From assembly GCA_947461145.1 (NCBI GenBank), contig CANHJD010000010.1, forward strand, positions 1 to 34,039: DNA of 34,039 bases, written 5' to 3'. Positions within the stretch are counted from its first letter, which is position 1; every line of letters begins with the position of its first letter. This DNA comes from Bacteriovoracaceae bacterium. Lineage in GTDB: Bacteria > Bdellovibrionota > Bacteriovoracia > Bacteriovoracales > Bacteriovoracaceae. The position numbers and the translations under genes were made by a program. The notes below the pieces were generated by a model. That model made no database searches. It was not told the DNA's origin and saw nothing but the letters and a program-made list of their open reading frames with translations. Shown here in pieces: positions 25,164 through 32,562 of the stretch.

Positions 25164-26840
25164 ATGAAAAGCTTAAAACTTGTACAATATTTTTTATTTA
25201 CCGCCTCTCTTTCTGCCTTTGCACAGGACTGGAGCCGTGATGTTGAGGTTAATTATCCCCGAGAAAATATCTACCAACTAGAACAAAGAAGCTTTGATAG
25301 AAAAGTAAATGAGGGTCGAAAAGTCGCCCTCTTTTATCCAGTCACTGTAAGCGAACTGCTAATCCCGTATCGACCCCTGAAAACATTTTTTGAGTCATCA
25401 CCAAATGATCCAGTTAGAAAAATCATATTTGACCTTGCACGAGTGGTTTCACCATTTAAATCCATGCCTGAAGTATTTGAGTGGTTGGGTGTGCATGAGT
25501 TTCCTTGGACAACTCAAGAGGAGACACCAAATCAACTCCCAGAACTTTCGGCAGATGAAAAAGAACTTCCAATGGGTGCAACCCTCATAAAAACAGAAAA
25601 TGGTGAAGCGCTGACATTTGGATGTGCCGCTTGTCATGCTGCAGATCTTTTTGGAGTAAAAGTTCTAGGCCTAACAAATCGTTTTCCCCGCGCGAATGAA
25701 TTTTTCAGACAGGGTCAAAAACTTGCTCCCTATGTTAATTCATTTGTTTTTAAAGAAATTCTAAAAACAACTGAGGGCGAGCGCCTGATGATGTTAAAAG
25801 CAAAAAATGTCACGAAATGGGTTGGAGCAAAGCAGCCTGTGGTTTTAGGACTAGATACAAGTCTTGCCCAAGTCGCCCTCTCGCTTGCAAAAAGAGAGAA
25901 AGACCCCTACGCCACAAGAACATTCAAATCGGCGCTAAATCCTAGACCTAATAAACTTTCAACTGCCGTGGCCGATAGTAAGCCCGCAGTATGGTGGAAT
26001 GTGAAATATAAAAATAGGTGGCTATCAGACGGATCGATTGTTTCCGGCAATCCTGTTCATACAAACTTTCTATGGAATGAAATTGGTCGCGGAACAGATC
26101 TAAAAAAATTAGAAGAATGGATGAATAAAAGTCAGGATGAAATTGAAGCGCTGACTGCAGCCGTCTTTGCATCTCGAGCACCTCGCTACGAAAAATTTTT
26201 TGGTGTGGATTCTATAAATATTCAAAAAGCCAAGAAAGGGCAAAAGCACTACGTTCAATCTTGCCAAAAATGTCATGGAACGTATGAGAAAGGGTGGGAT
26301 CTTTTGTATGGAGATCTTTTGTCTAAAACAAAACAAATACAAAACATAAAAGTTATCTACCATAAGAAAACACCAGTGATCGATGTTGGAACTGACCCCG
26401 GGCGATATCTTGGGATGAAGGAATTTGCCCAAGATCTGAATGAATTACAAATTTCAAAACAATTGAATGCAATGGTTGAGCCTCAAAAAGGATATGTACC
26501 TCCTCCCCTAGATGGAATTTGGGCCCGTTGGCCTTATTTTCATAACAATTCAATCCCCAATTTATGTGCTCTTCTAACAAAGGCAGAAGAAAGACCTAAA
26601 ACATACTATGCTGGGAAGGCCATCGATAAAGAAAGGGATTATGATCAAGAATGTTTAGGTTATCCGATAGGAGAAAAAACTCCTGATGAGTGGAAGGAAA
26701 ACCTTTCTTTATTCTATGACACCAAGAAAGAAGGTCTTTCAAATGCTGGACATGATGAGAGAATTTTCATTAAAGATGGTAAGGAAATCTATTCAGGCCA
26801 GGAGAAGAGTGAGCTTATTGAGTTCCTGAAGACTCTTTAG
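25164..26840 (+). CDS. Exported dihaem c-type cytochrome, RoxA-like
   Basis: A 558-residue periplasmic protein with a signal peptide (LVQYFLFTASLSAFAQ). Two haem c sites are visible: CAACH at 154-158 and CQKCH at 367-371. The motif PPPLDGIWARWPYFHNNSIPNL near 450 is typical of the RoxA-like cytochrome family (rubber oxygenase and relatives; also resembling MauG/CcP peroxidase-like proteins). The haem spacing of over 200 residues fits the RoxA layout. Function here (oxygenase, peroxidase or electron transfer) is not determinable. Its last 26 bases overlap the convergent HTH gene. Confidence 0.85.
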   Translation: MKSLKLVQYFLFTASLSAFAQDWSRDVEVNYPRENIYQLEQRSFDRKVNEGRKVALFYPVTVSELLIPYRPLKTFFESSPNDPVRKIIFDLARVVSPFKSMPEVFEWLGVHEFPWTTQEETPNQLPELSADEKELPMGATLIKTENGEALTFGCAACHAADLFGVKVLGLTNRFPRANEFFRQGQKLAPYVNSFVFKEILKTTEGERLMMLKAKNVTKWVGAKQPVVLGLDTSLAQVALSLAKREKDPYATRTFKSALNPRPNKLSTAVADSKPAVWWNVKYKNRWLSDGSIVSGNPVHTNFLWNEIGRGTDLKKLEEWMNKSQDEIEALTAAVFASRAPRYEKFFGVDSINIQKAKKGQKHYVQSCQKCHGTYEKGWDLLYGDLLSKTKQIQNIKVIYHKKTPVIDVGTDPGRYLGMKEFAQDLNELQISKQLNAMVEPQKGYVPPPLDGIWARWPYFHNNSIPNLCALLTKAEERPKTYYAGKAIDKERDYDQECLGYPIGEKTPDEWKENLSLFYDTKKEGLSNAGHDERIFIKDGKEIYSGQEKSELIEFLKTL

Positions 26841-27693
26841 AGATAATTCTAAAATGGCACCCTAAGGATAAAGGTTGATGAGGTGAAATAAAAACGGCTT
26901 CAACCTTTATACCAAGCTGAAATTTAACCAAATTTTCGAGAGTAAATTTTCGATAAAGAATAAGCCACTGCTTAGTTTGCTCTGTAACATCCTTAATGGT
27001 TAAAACAACATGCTCTTTTGGTAAATAGGTGAAAATAAGGTTGCCCTCTCTGTCAGCAAGAGAAAGATCAAAATCGCCCTGAAAATATGGTTGCTGAAAG
27101 ATGTATTCAATTAATAGTTCTTTTACAGATTTAAATTTCATCCAGCCTCCAAAATAGTGATCCCAATAAATTGCATCTTGGCCGGTCTGAACAATCTGCC
27201 TAATTTGTGACTCTGTATCAATGCCTACCTTAATGAACAAATTAATTAAATCAACCACAAGCTGAAAACTTACAAGATTATCAAAATCTAAAAAAAAATC
27301 TGTCTCTAGTTTTGAATTTTTGAAGAATTCATTTATTAACTTTTGCTCATTTATAGAATCGAGGTAATTAATGAAAGGATAAATTTCTTTAACCTTTTGA
27401 GCACGATTTAAACGAAAACGTTTTGGAAGTCTTAAATCTTGGGCATCATTCATTAATACGCGAGTATGCCTGTCAATAATTCCAACTTCTATCGATTCTG
27501 GCGGAATTGCAGTGAACCGTGCAAACAAAAACCACTGCCAAGCATCGGGGAGTAAACGATTATGTTCCATTTTTGAGAGTGCACTCTGAGAACAGCCAAT
27601 AGCCTGGGCGACATCTGCCTGATTGAGATTTTTAAATTTACGGGCGGCCCTCATTAGTGGGCCTATATCCTGATGAGACGATGGGCCTGTCAT
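26815..27693 (-). CDS. XRE-type HTH protein with a large C-terminal domain
   Basis: A 292-residue putative transcription regulator. Residues 10-62 form a Cro/CI-type helix-turn-helix (LMRAARKFKNLNQADVAQAIG, then CSQSALSKMEHNRLLP). The remaining 220 residues match no domain I recognise and may be a sensor or dimerisation region. It starts 2 bases after the aldo/keto reductase stop and is cotranscribed with it. The likely targets are the local operons, but no operator was identified. Confidence 0.78.
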   Translation of the reverse strand: MTGPSSHQDIGPLMRAARKFKNLNQADVAQAIGCSQSALSKMEHNRLLPDAWQWFLFARFTAIPPESIEVGIIDRHTRVLMNDAQDLRLPKRFRLNRAQKVKEIYPFINYLDSINEQKLINEFFKNSKLETDFFLDFDNLVSFQLVVDLINLFIKVGIDTESQIRQIVQTGQDAIYWDHYFGGWMKFKSVKELLIEYIFQQPYFQGDFDLSLADREGNLIFTYLPKEHVVLTIKDVTEQTKQWLILYRKFTLENLVKFQLGIKVEAVFISPHQPLSLGCHFRIISKESSGTQ

Positions 27694-27695
27694 AA

Positions 27696-28625
27696 TTAAC
27701 TACTCCATCTGTTAAGAACCTCCGTGATTGTCTGAGAGGATAATGGACTCTGTAAATATGTCGTGAGTTCAATTAAGTCTTTATTATTTTTTAATCCGAC
27801 GAGGCAACATGATACGCCGTAATGATGAAGGTTAAAATTAAGGCAGAATTGAGTTAAAGAGAGATTGTAGTCATTAAGTATTGTTTTTAAGTTTTTAACT
27901 CGTTCGATTTTTTCGAGCACCTCTTTTTTATTCCACCATGGCGCCCAGGATCTGGCATCAGATGTGTCAAATTTCCTTTCCGATGTAACTCTACCGCTCA
28001 GGATCCCTTTGTCTAAGGTTCCCCAACTCATCGTGAAGTGATTTTTCCAAACTTCATTTAAGTCATCAAACGCCTGAGTTCTTAAAACATTCAACTCTGA
28101 TTGAAGAAATGATATCTCTCCAATTTCCTGAGCTAACTTTAAATCTTGTTGATTTGTGTTACAAAGACCGAGATGGGCTATGGCACCCTTTTCCTGATAC
28201 TTTTTTAAAATTTCCATTGGCCTTCTAATATCAATATTTTTATCAGGCCAGTGAATCATGTAGACATCAATTCTCTCTCTTTTTAACCTCTTTAAACTTT
28301 CAAGCAGCATTTTCTCAATAACCTGAGGGGAATTTGTCATATTTACCCTACGACTAGAATGCCAATCAACCCCACCCTTAGATACAAGGATGGCGTCTTT
28401 AGGTAAATATTTACCTAAGCGCTCTTCAGAAAGTCCAAAACCATAGATAGGAGCTGTATCGTAGAGATTAAGACCAGCTTCCCAGGTATTTTTCAAAAGC
28501 CTTTCTGCTGCTGCTTCATCTAAATCTCCAAAACCATACCCCCCACCTTCACCACTTAGAGCAGCTCCACCAAATCCTAGGACTGAAACAGGTCTTTGTA
28601 AGACGGAATTTTCTCTATAAAGCAT
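27696..28625 (-). CDS. Aldo/keto reductase
   Basis: A 309-residue TIM-barrel NADPH-dependent oxidoreductase. The N-terminal LYRENSV...VSVLGFGGAALSG, the catalytic segment NLYDTAPIYGFGLSEERLGKYL (Asp and Tyr), LVSKGGVDW (Lys) and YMIHWPDKN (His) give the AKR tetrad. The frame is open to a TTG at 28652, but family starts and an AAAGGA further upstream favour the ATG at 28625. First gene of a leftward pair with the HTH regulator, divergent from the nucleosidase operon; the two share a 56-base intergenic region. Substrate unknown. Confidence 0.85.
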   Translation of the reverse strand: MLYRENSVLQRPVSVLGFGGAALSGEGGGYGFGDLDEAAAERLLKNTWEAGLNLYDTAPIYGFGLSEERLGKYLPKDAILVSKGGVDWHSSRRVNMTNSPQVIEKMLLESLKRLKRERIDVYMIHWPDKNIDIRRPMEILKKYQEKGAIAHLGLCNTNQQDLKLAQEIGEISFLQSELNVLRTQAFDDLNEVWKNHFTMSWGTLDKGILSGRVTSERKFDTSDARSWAPWWNKKEVLEKIERVKNLKTILNDYNLSLTQFCLNFNLHHYGVSCCLVGLKNNKDLIELTTYLQSPLSSQTITEVLNRWSS

Positions 28626-28645
28626 AGGACTGAAGATCCTTTGAA

Positions 28646-28674
28646 TTGACAATTAGGCCCATAAAAAGCACATT
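28646..28674 (+). promoter_or_regulatory. Predicted promoter of the nucleosidase-SPL-oxygenase operon, near-leaderless
   Basis: TTGACA (perfect -35) at 28646-28651, 17-base spacer, CACATT at 28669-28674 (weak). The expected start is 28681, one base before the ATG at 28682. No Shine-Dalgarno sequence is present upstream of that ATG. Confidence 0.45.
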
Positions 28675-28681
28675 TTCTTAC

Positions 28682-29689
28682 ATGCATCTTATCACGATGG
28701 CACATCTTGGTGAAGCCCAGGGTGTCATAGAATATTTTAATCTGAAAAGAATCACACCTCACTATTTTGAGGGAGAATTACTGTGTTGCCTGATCACTGG
28801 GGAAGGCCCCTTTGAAGCAGCAACCACAACGTCCCATTATCTAGGTCAAAAAAAATTTAATTCCGTGATAAATCTAGGAATTGCCGGAACTCTTTCTGAT
28901 GATTTTAAAGTGGGTGAGATTTATGGTGTCAGATCCATTTACCTCATCATTGATGGAAAGCCACAATTTAAAAGCTTTAAATCATTTGAAAAAGGAGCTG
29001 ACTGCTTAACTAGCTTTGAAAGGATTGTCTCATCCCAAAAAGCCAACAAATTATCAGGGATAGGACATCTCGTGGACAGAGAAGCCTGGGGTGTCGCCAT
29101 GGCGGCAAAGACCTGCGGAGTCAGCTTCAAATGTTTTAAACTAATTTCTGATGTTGCAGGAACAATTGGTGCCTGTGAAATTGTTAGAGATAATGCTCAG
29201 AATGGTTCACTTCAACTTGCGCAGTTTCTCCAAAATATCATAGAGGATCGCCCTTCTGAAAAAAATCATACTGAACTCCAAGGCTTCCATTTCACAGTTA
29301 GTACACGCCATAAATTTGAGCAGATGCTTAAAAAAATCAGCATCCGAGAAGCGATCGAAATAGATGACGTTGCAGAACTGTTTAATCTAGATGAACTGAG
29401 AGAGCAAAAAATTCTTCCAAAGGACAGAACGCGCCTTCTTCTTAATCAAATGGAAAATAAATTGGATCCATTAAAAGAAAAACTTGAGAGCGGTCTTCAA
29501 AAATGGAAAACCCCTCTTGAGAGGGAAGGTATTTTTATTCAAACGGACTCAACTTGGGAGAGTGATGAAGTAAAATTAAGTTTTTCTGCCAAAACCCAAC
29601 TTGAATTAGAACAAAAAATCGAAATATTGAGAAATCTTAAGTTCAAACCTTTTGAAAATCTAAGAAATGGAAACTTCAATGTGGAATAA
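28682..29689 (+). CDS. Nucleoside phosphorylase/nucleosidase-fold protein with extra C-terminal domain
   Basis: A 335-residue protein. Residues 1-195 are a purine nucleoside phosphorylase/MTAN-like fold: HLGEAQG with Glu11, VINLGIAGTLSDDFKVGEI at 62-80, VDREAWGVAMAA with Glu134, and LISDVAG with Asp157. Glu11, Glu134 and Asp157 are the counterparts of the base- and ribose-binding acids of MTA/SAH nucleosidase. Residues about 200-335 are a charged domain that I do not recognise. Substrates could be 5'-deoxyadenosine, MTA/SAH, futalosine or a modified nucleoside. The frame is open to a TTG at 28646, but the ATG at 28682 gives the standard family N-terminus. The 3' end overlaps the radical-SAM gene by 11 bases. 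Confidence 0.78.
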   Translation: MHLITMAHLGEAQGVIEYFNLKRITPHYFEGELLCCLITGEGPFEAATTTSHYLGQKKFNSVINLGIAGTLSDDFKVGEIYGVRSIYLIIDGKPQFKSFKSFEKGADCLTSFERIVSSQKANKLSGIGHLVDREAWGVAMAAKTCGVSFKCFKLISDVAGTIGACEIVRDNAQNGSLQLAQFLQNIIEDRPSEKNHTELQGFHFTVSTRHKFEQMLKKISIREAIEIDDVAELFNLDELREQKILPKDRTRLLLNQMENKLDPLKEKLESGLQKWKTPLEREGIFIQTDSTWESDEVKLSFSAKTQLELEQKIEILRNLKFKPFENLRNGNFNVE

Positions 29690-30683
29690 AATCTATGTTG
29701 AAGAGCATCTGATACATAATCCTAGGGTGCAAAGCATTTTAGAAAAGCTAAAGCAGGTGCCCATTCTCATAACATCTTATGATGAAATTTGGGGCAAGAG
29801 TAAAAAACCCTATCTCCATAAGCGAGATTCTCTTAATTTATTTATTGCGCAAAAAAAAGGCCAACTCTTAAAACTCGCACCAGATGCTTATGGCCAGGCA
29901 GGTGAACCTCACTATTATTTCATCCATGCCTTTAATTGTATTTACGAATGTCAGTACTGCTACTTGCAAGGATATTTCAACACTCCTGACATTGTACTTT
30001 TTGTTAATCACGAAGAAATCTTAGAGGAGATGCAAAAATCCTTAGAGAGCTATCCGAATCAAAAAGTGTGGTATCATGCGGGAGAATTTTCCGATTCATT
30101 GGCCCTTACTCACCTAACGGGTGAGCTTGAACTTTATCATGATTTCTGCAAGAAAAATCCGCGGGCGACAATTGAACTAAGAACAAAATCAGTGAATATA
30201 AAAGAACTTATAAAACTTAGTCCCTTAAAGAATTTTATAATTAGCTTCTCACTGTCTCCCTTTTCAATGGGTAAGGTTATTGACTTAAAGACTCCCTCAT
30301 CTCTGAGTCGCCTGAAGGCTATGGTTGAACTAAAGAAAAATGGATATCAAATCGCTGCTCACTTTGATCCCATCATCTACCAAGATCAGTTTGATGAACA
30401 TTACAAGACTCTCCTTCAAACAATGAAAGATATGGAGCTGACGGACAATTTGAATTATCTCTCTTTGGGAGTTGTCAGATTCACCAAAGATGTTTATCGC
30501 GAAGTAGAAAGGAACTACCCTGACTCACCTATCCACTCCACACCAATGATAAAAAGTTTTGACAATAAAGTTCGCTACACCCATCCGATGCGAATGTGGA
30601 TGATGAATAAAGTTAAAGATGCCGCCATAAACGCTGGTGTTTCTTCAGAGTTAATTTATCTTTGCATGGAAGAAAATGATTAA
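29679..30683 (+). CDS. Radical-SAM protein of the spore photoproduct lyase (SPL) family
   Basis: A 334-residue protein. Cys87, Cys91 and Cys94 in CIYECQYCYLQGYF bind the radical-SAM [4Fe-4S] cluster, and CYLQ followed by VNHEEIL is the SPL-family signature. In Bacillus SPL the catalytic hydrogen donor is Cys141 in an EASCTSD motif; the aligned segment here is HAGEFSD, with Glu136 in that place (Bacillus sequence recalled from memory). The enzyme thus likely uses SAM radical chemistry on DNA, RNA or nucleotides but not by the standard spore-lesion route. ATGs at 29667 and 29679 are both possible; GGAA precedes the second by six bases. Overlaps both neighbours, so it is tightly coupled. Confidence 0.82.
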   Translation: MWNKIYVEEHLIHNPRVQSILEKLKQVPILITSYDEIWGKSKKPYLHKRDSLNLFIAQKKGQLLKLAPDAYGQAGEPHYYFIHAFNCIYECQYCYLQGYFNTPDIVLFVNHEEILEEMQKSLESYPNQKVWYHAGEFSDSLALTHLTGELELYHDFCKKNPRATIELRTKSVNIKELIKLSPLKNFIISFSLSPFSMGKVIDLKTPSSLSRLKAMVELKKNGYQIAAHFDPIIYQDQFDEHYKTLLQTMKDMELTDNLNYLSLGVVRFTKDVYREVERNYPDSPIHSTPMIKSFDNKVRYTHPMRMWMMNKVKDAAINAGVSSELIYLCMEEND

Positions 30684-31146
30684 AAGACCTGATCTTTTCA
30701 AATCAGGATTTCACGTAAGTTCTATTTCACTTTCAAGTGAAATAAATTATCTCGTTCATTCTGAAAAATGGAAAGAACTCGATCAAGAGTTCAAAAAATT
30801 AACGACAAAAGACGGCGAGCTTTTCAATTTCCTCCATAAATTTCATGATTTTGAATCGATAGAATTTATTATTAGCATTCGCGATGCTCAAAATGAGTGG
30901 GAAGAGGATGGAATCTGGCACGATGACGGCTCTCGTGTTTTTGCTTTTTCACTCTCTCTCACTGAAAATGCCATAGAGGGGGGACTTCTCGGATTCAGAA
31001 AAATTGGTGATGAAGAGTCGCAATTTATTCCCACACCAAAGTTTGGGGGTATCATTACTTTCCTAACAGGAGTCTATGGATACGAGCATAAAATCCACCA
31101 GGTAAAGAAAGGCCGCAGAGTGATTATTGCGGGTTGGTGTTCCTAA
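30676..31146 (+). CDS. 2-oxoglutarate/Fe(II)-dependent oxygenase
   Basis: A 156-residue single-domain double-stranded beta-helix oxygenase. His82 and Asp84 in IWHDDGSRVFAFSLSLT form the HxD iron motif. His138, with Arg148 ten residues later (YEHKIHQVKKGRR), gives the distal iron ligand and the 2-oxoglutarate-binding Arg. No signal peptide. The pattern is like the prolyl-hydroxylase/PF13640 type, which includes protein, nucleic-acid and small-molecule hydroxylases. It overlaps the radical-SAM gene by 8 bases and is the last gene of the operon, so its substrate is probably linked to that enzyme. Confidence 0.8.
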   Translation: MIKRPDLFKSGFHVSSISLSSEINYLVHSEKWKELDQEFKKLTTKDGELFNFLHKFHDFESIEFIISIRDAQNEWEEDGIWHDDGSRVFAFSLSLTENAIEGGLLGFRKIGDEESQFIPTPKFGGIITFLTGVYGYEHKIHQVKKGRRVIIAGWCS

Positions 31147-31233: not shown

Positions 31234-31554
31234 ATGAAGACACTTACTCTTGGATCACTTTTCATATTCTCAACATCACTTTTTGCAGGTGATTTATATA
31301 TGAACTGTGCACAAGCACCTGTTGATGAGGCCGAAGAATTCATTGCTAGCAGCTCAGTAAGTAAGGGCAGAGCTTATGTCGCTTTCAAAAATGGAAAGCA
31401 CAGTTACACAATAACTTTTGAAAATGGTAAATACGAATACTTAAAATCAAATTCTAATCTTGGAGGATTTGAAAGGGTCTCAAATGTATCAGGGTCCGGT
31501 AAGTATAAAGAAGCGAAGATTGTTGATGGATTTTATTGTCACATTAACGATTAG
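31234..31554 (+). CDS. Small secreted protein of unknown function
   Basis: A 106-residue protein with a signal peptide (LTLGSLFIFSTSLFAG) and a mature domain of about 88 residues. Two Cys (MNCAQA and FYCHIND) probably form a disulfide joining the ends. The alternating SYTITFENGKYEYLKS pattern suggests a small beta-sandwich. AAAGGGG lies five bases before the ATG. Monocistronic, with its own terminator at 31614-31641. No family recognised. Confidence 0.68.
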   Translation: MKTLTLGSLFIFSTSLFAGDLYMNCAQAPVDEAEEFIASSSVSKGRAYVAFKNGKHSYTITFENGKYEYLKSNSNLGGFERVSNVSGSGKYKEAKIVDGFYCHIND

Positions 31555-31644: not shown

Positions 31645-32562
31645 TTAATTTTCAAAAAGACCAGGGATAGAAAGATATCTCTCACCCGTGTCATAACAAA
31701 ATGTGAGCACACTCGCTTGAGCCGGAATGTCTTTAAGTTGTTTTGCAACTGCCGCAAGTGAAGCACCAGAAGAGATACCAATAAAAATCCCTTCCTCCTT
31801 TGCAGAACGTTGGGCCATTTCAAAGGCTTCATCTTTTGTCACAGTAATAACTCCATCAATTATCGAAGGATCAAGTATGGGCGGAATAAAACCAGCGCCT
31901 ATCCCTTGAATCGGATGAGGACCCGGATTTCCTCCAGATAGAACAGGTGAATCGGCCGGTTCAACGGCAATGATTTTTGTTCCAAACTTTTCCTTTAAGA
32001 TTTTTCCAACAGCACATAAGTGTCCACCAGTACCAACTCCAGTGACAAGGTAATCAAGACCATTCGGAAAATCTTTTATGATCTCAACAGCAGTAGTCTC
32101 GGCATGAATTTTAAGATTATCCTTATTTTCAAATTGCATAGGCATCCAAGAGCCGGGAGTCAAAGAAACTAATTCTTTGGCCTTCTCGATCGCACCTTTC
32201 ATGCCTTTTTCTCTTGGAGTTAACTCAAACTTTGCTCCATACGCGGCCATGATTTTACGTCGCTCAATCGACATGGACTCTGGCATAACCAATATAAGAT
32301 TATACCCCTTAACAGCGCATACGAGTGCAAGACCAATCCCAGTATTGCCTGAAGTTGGCTCAATTATGGTCGTGCCCGTCTTCAAGTCACCACGTTTTTC
32401 AGCTTCTTCTATCATTGATAGGGCAATTCGATCTTTAATACTTGCGCCTGGATTTTGCCGTTCAAGCTTTATCCACACTTCACCCTTGTGATCAGAGAAG
32501 AGTTTATTCAACTTAACATGAGGTGTATTACCGATCACGCCCAATATAGAGGAAACCTTCAT
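31645..32562 (-). CDS. cysK: Cysteine synthase (O-acetylserine sulfhydrylase)
   Basis: A 305-residue PLP enzyme that makes cysteine from O-acetylserine and sulfide. Lys43 in [10 protein letters not shown] is the PLP Schiff-base lysine, [10 protein letters not shown] is the substrate-binding Asn loop, GVGTGGHL binds the PLP phosphate, and [11 protein letters not shown] follows at the C-terminal side. Length is typical. Assignment to CysK rather than CysM or a cystathionine beta-synthase-like enzyme is by overall pattern. It starts 2 bases after the CsbD-like gene stop, so it is cotranscribed. Confidence 0.9.

Follow-up and report, generated by a model that had tools for sequence, protein, structure and literature searches.

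In menaquinone synthesis, the radical S-adenosylmethionine (SAM) enzyme MqnE performs a radical adenosylation, which is followed by the action of the hydrolase MqnB. In the synthesis of the hopanoid side chain, HpnH attaches the 5'-deoxyadenosyl radical and HpnG takes off the adenine; a still unidentified enzyme turns ribosylhopane into the tetrol, to which HpnI then supplies a sugar (PMC12583986). Oxo-arsenosugar synthesis likewise involves a radical-SAM enzyme that adenosylates arsenic (PMC12159101). In the spore photoproduct (SP) lyase, or SPL, of Bacillus subtilis, Cys141 donates a hydrogen atom and Tyr99 and Tyr97 return the radical, with regeneration of SAM (PMC5368176). Homologs of SPL outside the spore-formers have no settled role. 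One such homolog is encoded in a 34,039-nt stretch of DNA (the window; contig CANHJD010000010.1 of assembly GCA_947461145.1) from a Bacteriovoracaceae metagenome-assembled genome (MAG) of 2.65 Mb and 86% completeness. The SPL gene of the window lies downstream of a gene for a nucleosidase-like protein (NUC), from which a gene for an aldo-keto reductase (AKR) is transcribed divergently, and these three genes (positions 27696-30683) are the evolutionary unit. The cassette is tentatively viewed, with a probability of roughly 0.4, as the local form of a widespread module that would make a small molecule or lipid conjugate by way of SPL-catalyzed adenosylation.

The NUC-SPL pair in diverse phyla

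When 84,980 species genomes were scanned with an SPL alignment, 521 loci were confirmed, and the best 80 of these were examined. Three of these (L120, L151, and L152) are cut by a contig end; in all 77 intact loci NUC is located directly 5' of SPL on the same strand (in L165, L166, and L170, as judged by reading the open reading frames [ORFs]), a count that applies to the NUC-linked SPL branch and not to every SPL, because the scan favored query-like SPLs. According to the record titles, some of which could be mislabeled for MAGs (e.g., those of Calditrichaeota), the pair is found in Bacteriovoracia, Oligoflexales, Leptospiraceae and other Spirochaetes, Simkaniaceae/Parachlamydiaceae/Chlamydia, Opitutia, Coxiellaceae and other Gammaproteobacteria, and Marinimicrobia. 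A functional link is indicated most strongly by Fusobacterium vincentii, in which NUC and SPL are encoded by a single 623-aa ORF. The link between the nucleosidase and SPL that a sequence-only reading of the window had proposed is borne out by a conserved functional pair. That reading also knew of no described system of this composition, and none was found in the open-licence papers searched, where work on SPL with a nucleosidase, a glycosyltransferase, Bdellovibrio, or Fusobacterium does not describe the pair. Among the controls, Bacillus splB and six SPL-family genes (from Gloeothece, Nostoc, Deinococcus, Aureimonas, Streptomyces, and Granulicella) have no annotated NUC neighbor in a gene table that is itself incomplete. 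The viral contigs contained no SPL relatives.

Several of the records are peculiar in themselves. The fused gene of F. vincentii SB055 (L172; NZ_CP084075) resides on a 2.1-Mb "plasmid" that is chromosome-sized, and it is missing from the gene table of that plasmid. Two human stool records that carry no annotation and are titled "Bacteriophage sp." (L173 and L174; MT835770 and MT835514), which contain NUC-SPL and a gene of the short-chain dehydrogenase/reductase (SDR) family, resemble fragments of bacterial chromosomes.

Bacteriovoracaceae have AKR as the oxidoreductase partner of the pair, and several other groups have SDR, which is encoded directly 3' of SPL in Gammaproteobacteria, Chlamydiae, Fusobacterium, and one gut contig and 5' of the NUC-SPL pair in another gut contig. 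A further linked gene encodes a family 2 glycosyltransferase (GT2) with the conserved signature CEDY/F-D/E-LWL...GGHxDQLS and 39-44% identity across phyla. In Coxiellaceae, Opitutales, Gammaproteobacteria, and Marinimicrobia it is found 5' of NUC, and in Oligoflexales it is transcribed divergently. Most Bacteriovoracaceae have it together with AKR, but in the genus of the window, including the host genome, it is often missing. A neighbor cluster of other phyla that had been considered as AKR turned out to consist of GT2 sequences.

The AKR-NUC-SPL cassette in Bacteriovoracaceae

In the window, the 318-aa AKR (27696..28652, minus strand; PF00248, 146 bits) is separated by a divergent gap of ~30 bp from the 335-aa NUC (28682-29689, plus strand). 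The SPL gene (29679..30683, plus strand) has an ORF that opens at 29667, and its start is probably at 29679, where the proteins of most relatives begin in the alignment. With that start, NUC and SPL overlap by 11 bases, and SPL overlaps by 8 bases with a gene for a small, 156-aa 2-oxoglutarate (2OG)/Fe(II) oxygenase (30676..31146, plus strand). The sequence-only reading had taken NUC, SPL, and 2OG as one operon under a single promoter. All three ORFs and both overlaps are as it described; it rightly placed NUC and SPL in one unit and overlooked AKR, which is also a member. The promoter was not recovered: a sigma-70 consensus scan upstream of NUC found none, and promoter-like sites there were fewer than in shuffled sequences.

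The composition of the unit follows from the distribution of the genes in 129 genomes of the family, of which 93 with the short-type SPL were compared to 20 without any SPL. NUC is encoded in 91 of the 93 versus 1 of the 20 genomes (P = 2e-18), AKR in 91 versus 4 (P = 6e-14), and GT2 in 78 versus 3 (P = 6e-9), whereas for 2OG, present in 76 versus 14, P is 0.24; these Fisher counts ignore shared ancestry, and the genomes are not phylogenetically independent. In both short-SPL genomes without NUC, SPL is at a contig end. Where neighborhoods of the short-type genomes were read, nearly all have NUC directly 5' of SPL and AKR divergent. Six genomes of the same genus (G080, G088, G089, G091, G095, and G102) carry an empty site, in which the 3-kb AKR-NUC-SPL block is missing and 2OG adjoins the gene for a 292-aa protein with an HTH_3 match (26815..27693, minus strand, in the window); these sites are flanked by homologs of the genes that follow in the window (31645-32562 and beyond). 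The adjacency of the HTH_3 and 2OG genes at the empty sites identifies them as borders, with the HTH_3 gene on the left and outside the cassette, and AKR-NUC-SPL as the cassette itself. A tree of 2OG proteins, too weakly supported for a reliable count of gains and losses of the cassette, would imply 4 changes in its best form, with 1 forced. One locus (L209; G113:C45:2500-9500) has AKR without NUC-SPL, and an unidentified 298-aa ORF lies there between AKR and 2OG.

It follows that 2OG is outside the module and a neighbor only. A functional operon of NUC, SPL, and 2OG might be expected from the overlapping genes in the window's genus and from the closeness of 2OG to SPL in many Bacteriovoracaceae; such an operon is highly improbable, as it is contradicted by the empty sites, by the persistence of 2OG in 8/8 same-genus genomes that lack the cassette, by the genes of opposite orientation, a trypsin-like gene among them, that separate SPL and 2OG in other genera, and by the NUC-SPL loci of other phyla, which have no adjacent 2OG. 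Retained without SPL in 14 of 20 genomes, 2OG was rejected as a pathway member. The order of steps envisioned in the sequence-only reading (radical chemistry, oxidation, and base removal) therefore loses its middle step. The 2OG protein itself matches PF13640 (2OG-FeII_Oxy_3) with 24.9 bits, just below the 27-bit cut-off, and its HxD...H...R set (H82, D84, H138, and R148, the metal triad and the 2OG-binding Arg) is invariant in 32 homologs; a sequence comparison with solved structures gave no useful match. Other genes of the surroundings include one for a 558-aa cytochrome c-like protein with two CxxCH heme-binding motifs (25164-26840) and one for a 106-aa, probably secreted protein without a Pfam match (31234-31554).

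The NUC protein

NUC matches PF01048 (PNP_UDP_1) with 33.8 bits, above the cut-off, and consists of two domains. In its AlphaFold2 model (pLDDT, 92.7), the N-terminal domain (residues 1-197; 28682..29272, plus strand) is predicted to adopt the fold of methylthioadenosine/S-adenosylhomocysteine nucleosidase (MTAN), with MTAN and futalosine hydrolase as the best PDB matches (TMt of up to 0.80 with Chlamydia CT263). Its residues E11, E134, S156, and D157 correspond to Glu12, Glu174, Ser196, and Asp197 of MTAN, of which E12, E174, and D197 are catalytic in Escherichia coli; all four are invariant in 37/37 rows from the family and nearly so in 18 rows from elsewhere. Despite these residues, NUC scores below every curated nucleosidase cut-off (18.0 bits versus 73.8 for the MTAN family TIGR01704) and, by sequence, falls outside all curated nucleosidase families; compared by sequence with solved structures, it finds MTANs only at E values of 0.2-0.6. 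Its top NCBIfam match is futalosine hydrolase (TIGR03664), which could suggest a futalosine-type hydrolase of the menaquinone branch with SPL as a variant cyclase. This is barely credible, given a score of 41.7 bits that is far under the cut-off of 124.7 and the absence of MqnA/MqnD (PF02621) from 19/19 genomes searched, including that of the window, and the futalosine pathway was rejected on the latter ground.

The C-terminal helical domain (residues 198-335; 29273..29689, plus strand) has no Pfam match. It carries the motif [YF]xFTxSQ...L..L in the alignment and is homologous to a shorter C-terminal domain of the other phyla (hhalign P = 9e-6 in a single pairwise comparison). Two loci have kept this domain although their nucleosidase part is truncated (L174) or, in a Leptospiraceae NUC (L148:5060-5989), degenerate. 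The domain may have a role of its own with SPL.

The SPL protein

The SPL-fold protein scores above the cut-off of PF20903 (SPL; 81.9 bits), and its CxxxCxxC 4Fe-4S/SAM motif (C91, C95, and C98; 29937..29960, plus strand) is invariant in both SPL alignments. The residue that corresponds to the hydrogen-donating Cys141 of SplB is Glu140 (30084..30086, plus strand). In the alignment with SplB, this Cys is missing from all 41 NUC-linked SPLs examined, being replaced by Glu in the Bacteriovoracia-type rows and by Tyr in the others; among the controls it is present in SplB and the Gloeothece, Nostoc, and Granulicella proteins and absent from the other three. The thiol step back to SAM (PMC5368176) is therefore unavailable to the NUC-linked SPLs in the known way, and spore-photoproduct repair by them is unlikely. 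Cys333 (30663..30665, plus strand), part of a C-terminal Y.CME motif, is conserved without exception in the 24 short-type rows and in every long-type row, and a C-terminal Cys is near-universal also in the Chlamydia/Coxiella-type rows; it is a candidate for a replacement thiol or a substrate-facing residue. In the SPL tree, the canonical SPL family is set apart from all others (support of 100/98), and there is weak support (82/21) for the branch that joins the NUC-linked SPLs to the exclusion of the long type.

These features also bear on the possibility that SPL acts on a DNA or RNA lesion, for repair or modification, and NUC then removes the base or nucleoside, which is the first of the two readings of the locus that the sequence-only account had offered, with 2OG now excluded from the scheme. 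The full-length fold match to SP lyase (4fhe; TM score of 0.81), the Y97 and Y99 residues of the radical relay that the short-type SPLs retain, the proximity of some SPL-family genes elsewhere to a photolyase or ligase gene, and the predicted LexA control of splB in Alpha- and Betaproteobacteria (PMC3323433) would all fit such a role. It is nevertheless improbable and the least favored of the three readings of the module (adenosylation, clearance of 5'-deoxyadenosine, and repair), weakened by the missing hydrogen donor and by linked genes that encode AKR or SDR and GT2 and not repair proteins. The score against the SP lyase family TIGR04070 is likewise far under its cut-off (96.8 versus 400 bits). 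Enzymes of the MTAN fold, moreover, act on free nucleosides and are not known to act on polymers.

A long type of SPL (L052-L065; ~415-450 aa) has an N-terminal extension, GQSSDSL in place of the Cys141 motif, and additional Cys residues (CPVASxKTxCCN) ahead of the cluster. Of the family's 129 genomes, 16 have this type instead of the short one, and it shows no linkage to NUC. Where the long type is present, AKR and GT2 remain together at an unlinked locus, accompanied in six genomes by a NUC of ~190-220 aa that lacks the C-terminal domain; homology of the N-terminal extension to that domain is doubtful (hhalign P = 0.013).

Proposed pathway

While the module itself is well supported, the chemistry envisioned for it is an inference. 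The SPL-like enzyme would cleave SAM and, instead of abstracting a hydrogen, would add the 5'-deoxyadenosyl radical to a hypothetical acceptor. NUC, which its C-terminal domain (or, in Fusobacterium, the fusion) would keep close to SPL, would hydrolyze adenine off the adenosylated adduct. The exposed ribose aldehyde could then be reduced by AKR (or SDR), and GT2, where present, may glycosylate the product. A broader version, slightly less probable still, is that a branch of the SPL fold has turned into a 5'-deoxyadenosyl transferase. In predatory bacteria, Chlamydiae, Coxiellaceae, Spirochaetes, Verrucomicrobia, and Fusobacteria, this enzyme, its own nucleosidase, a reductase, and often GT2 would build a metabolite or lipid that is ribosylated, reduced, and glycosylated. 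Several observations weigh against adenosylation: SPL is outside the HpnH, MqnE, and ArsS families; among the 16 genomes whose long SPL is unlinked, 6 lack any NUC match; the N-terminal domain of NUC has degenerated in a Leptospiraceae locus and is cut short in a gut contig; and glycosylation cannot be essential in the window's genus, where GT2 is often absent.

The main competing explanation, possible although somewhat less probable, is the second reading of the sequence-only account, the clearance of 5'-deoxyadenosine. NUC would be a nucleosidase dedicated to this product and so relieve the inhibition of SPL by it, with AKR or SDR detoxifying the resulting 5-deoxyribose. SPL would then catalyze an unrelated hydrogen abstraction and, lacking Cys141, consume SAM rather than recycle it. 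Besides that missing Cys, the MTAN fold and residues of NUC agree with this scheme, and an adjoining aldehyde reductase suits the disposal of 5-deoxyribose. In its favor, too, a canonical MTAN is absent from the host genome, where the proteins present, as named by inspection of their sequences, are PNP, a phosphorylase resembling MTAP, and an AMP nucleosidase-like protein. However, same-genus genomes without SPL also lack NUC, which, being lost together with SPL, does not serve radical-SAM enzymes in general, and a low-flux enzyme seldom has a disposal operon of its own. Clearance would account for NUC and perhaps AKR but leaves GT2 without a role.

Should the adenosylation reading be correct, SPL would represent a new enzyme fold among the few radical adenosyl transferases, and an as yet unknown metabolite or lipid would be predicted in predatory and intracellular bacteria. 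In any case, the fixed partner, the natural fusion, the linked AKR, SDR, and GT2 genes, and the clean cassette boundary turn a large branch of SPLs into a testable pathway and argue against the automatic label of "spore photoproduct lyase / DNA repair."

Comparison with known systems

NUC shares with MTAN/Pfs nucleosidases the fold and the catalytic Glu, Glu, and Asp and differs from them in its extra C-terminal domain, its identity of 13-21% to the solved MTANs, and its scores below the curated cut-offs. The SPL of the module resembles SP lyases (SplB of TIGR04070 and the family TIGR03886) in its PF20903 match, radical-SAM motif, full-length fold, and Tyr97/Tyr99; unlike them, it lacks Cys141 and SplA, is paired with NUC, and stands apart in the tree, and its scores are under their cut-offs (for TIGR03886, 72 versus 438 bits).

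Oxo-arsenosugar biosynthesis likewise combines a radical-SAM adenosylation (ArsS) with a glycosyltransferase (GT2 family TIGR04283), against which the GT2 of the module reaches up to 82.6 bits (cut-off, 182). The arsenosugar pathway was rejected for the window's genome, in which no radical-SAM protein exceeds the TIGR04167 cut-off (best score, 18.9 bits). The MqnE-MqnB segment of the futalosine pathway differs in that the genomes have no MqnA/MqnD and the module's sequences are below the family cut-offs, but it too proceeds by radical-SAM adenosylation followed by an MTAN-fold hydrolase, and in the fold comparison of the module SPL MqnE turns up among the weaker hits. In HpnH-HpnG-HpnI, which makes the bacteriohopanepolyol side chain, the radical-SAM enzyme is of another family, and hopanoids were rejected as the substrate source, since squalene-hopene cyclase was found in 0 of 19 genomes searched. 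The likeness is one of logic: a radical-SAM enzyme acts there with a PNP-superfamily enzyme and a glycosyltransferase, and an enzyme yet to be identified stands between ribosylhopane and the tetrol. The succession of a radical-SAM protein, a nucleosidase, a reductase, and a glycosyltransferase in the module matches the logic of HpnH/HpnG and MqnE/MqnB, and it is this match that favors adenosylation.

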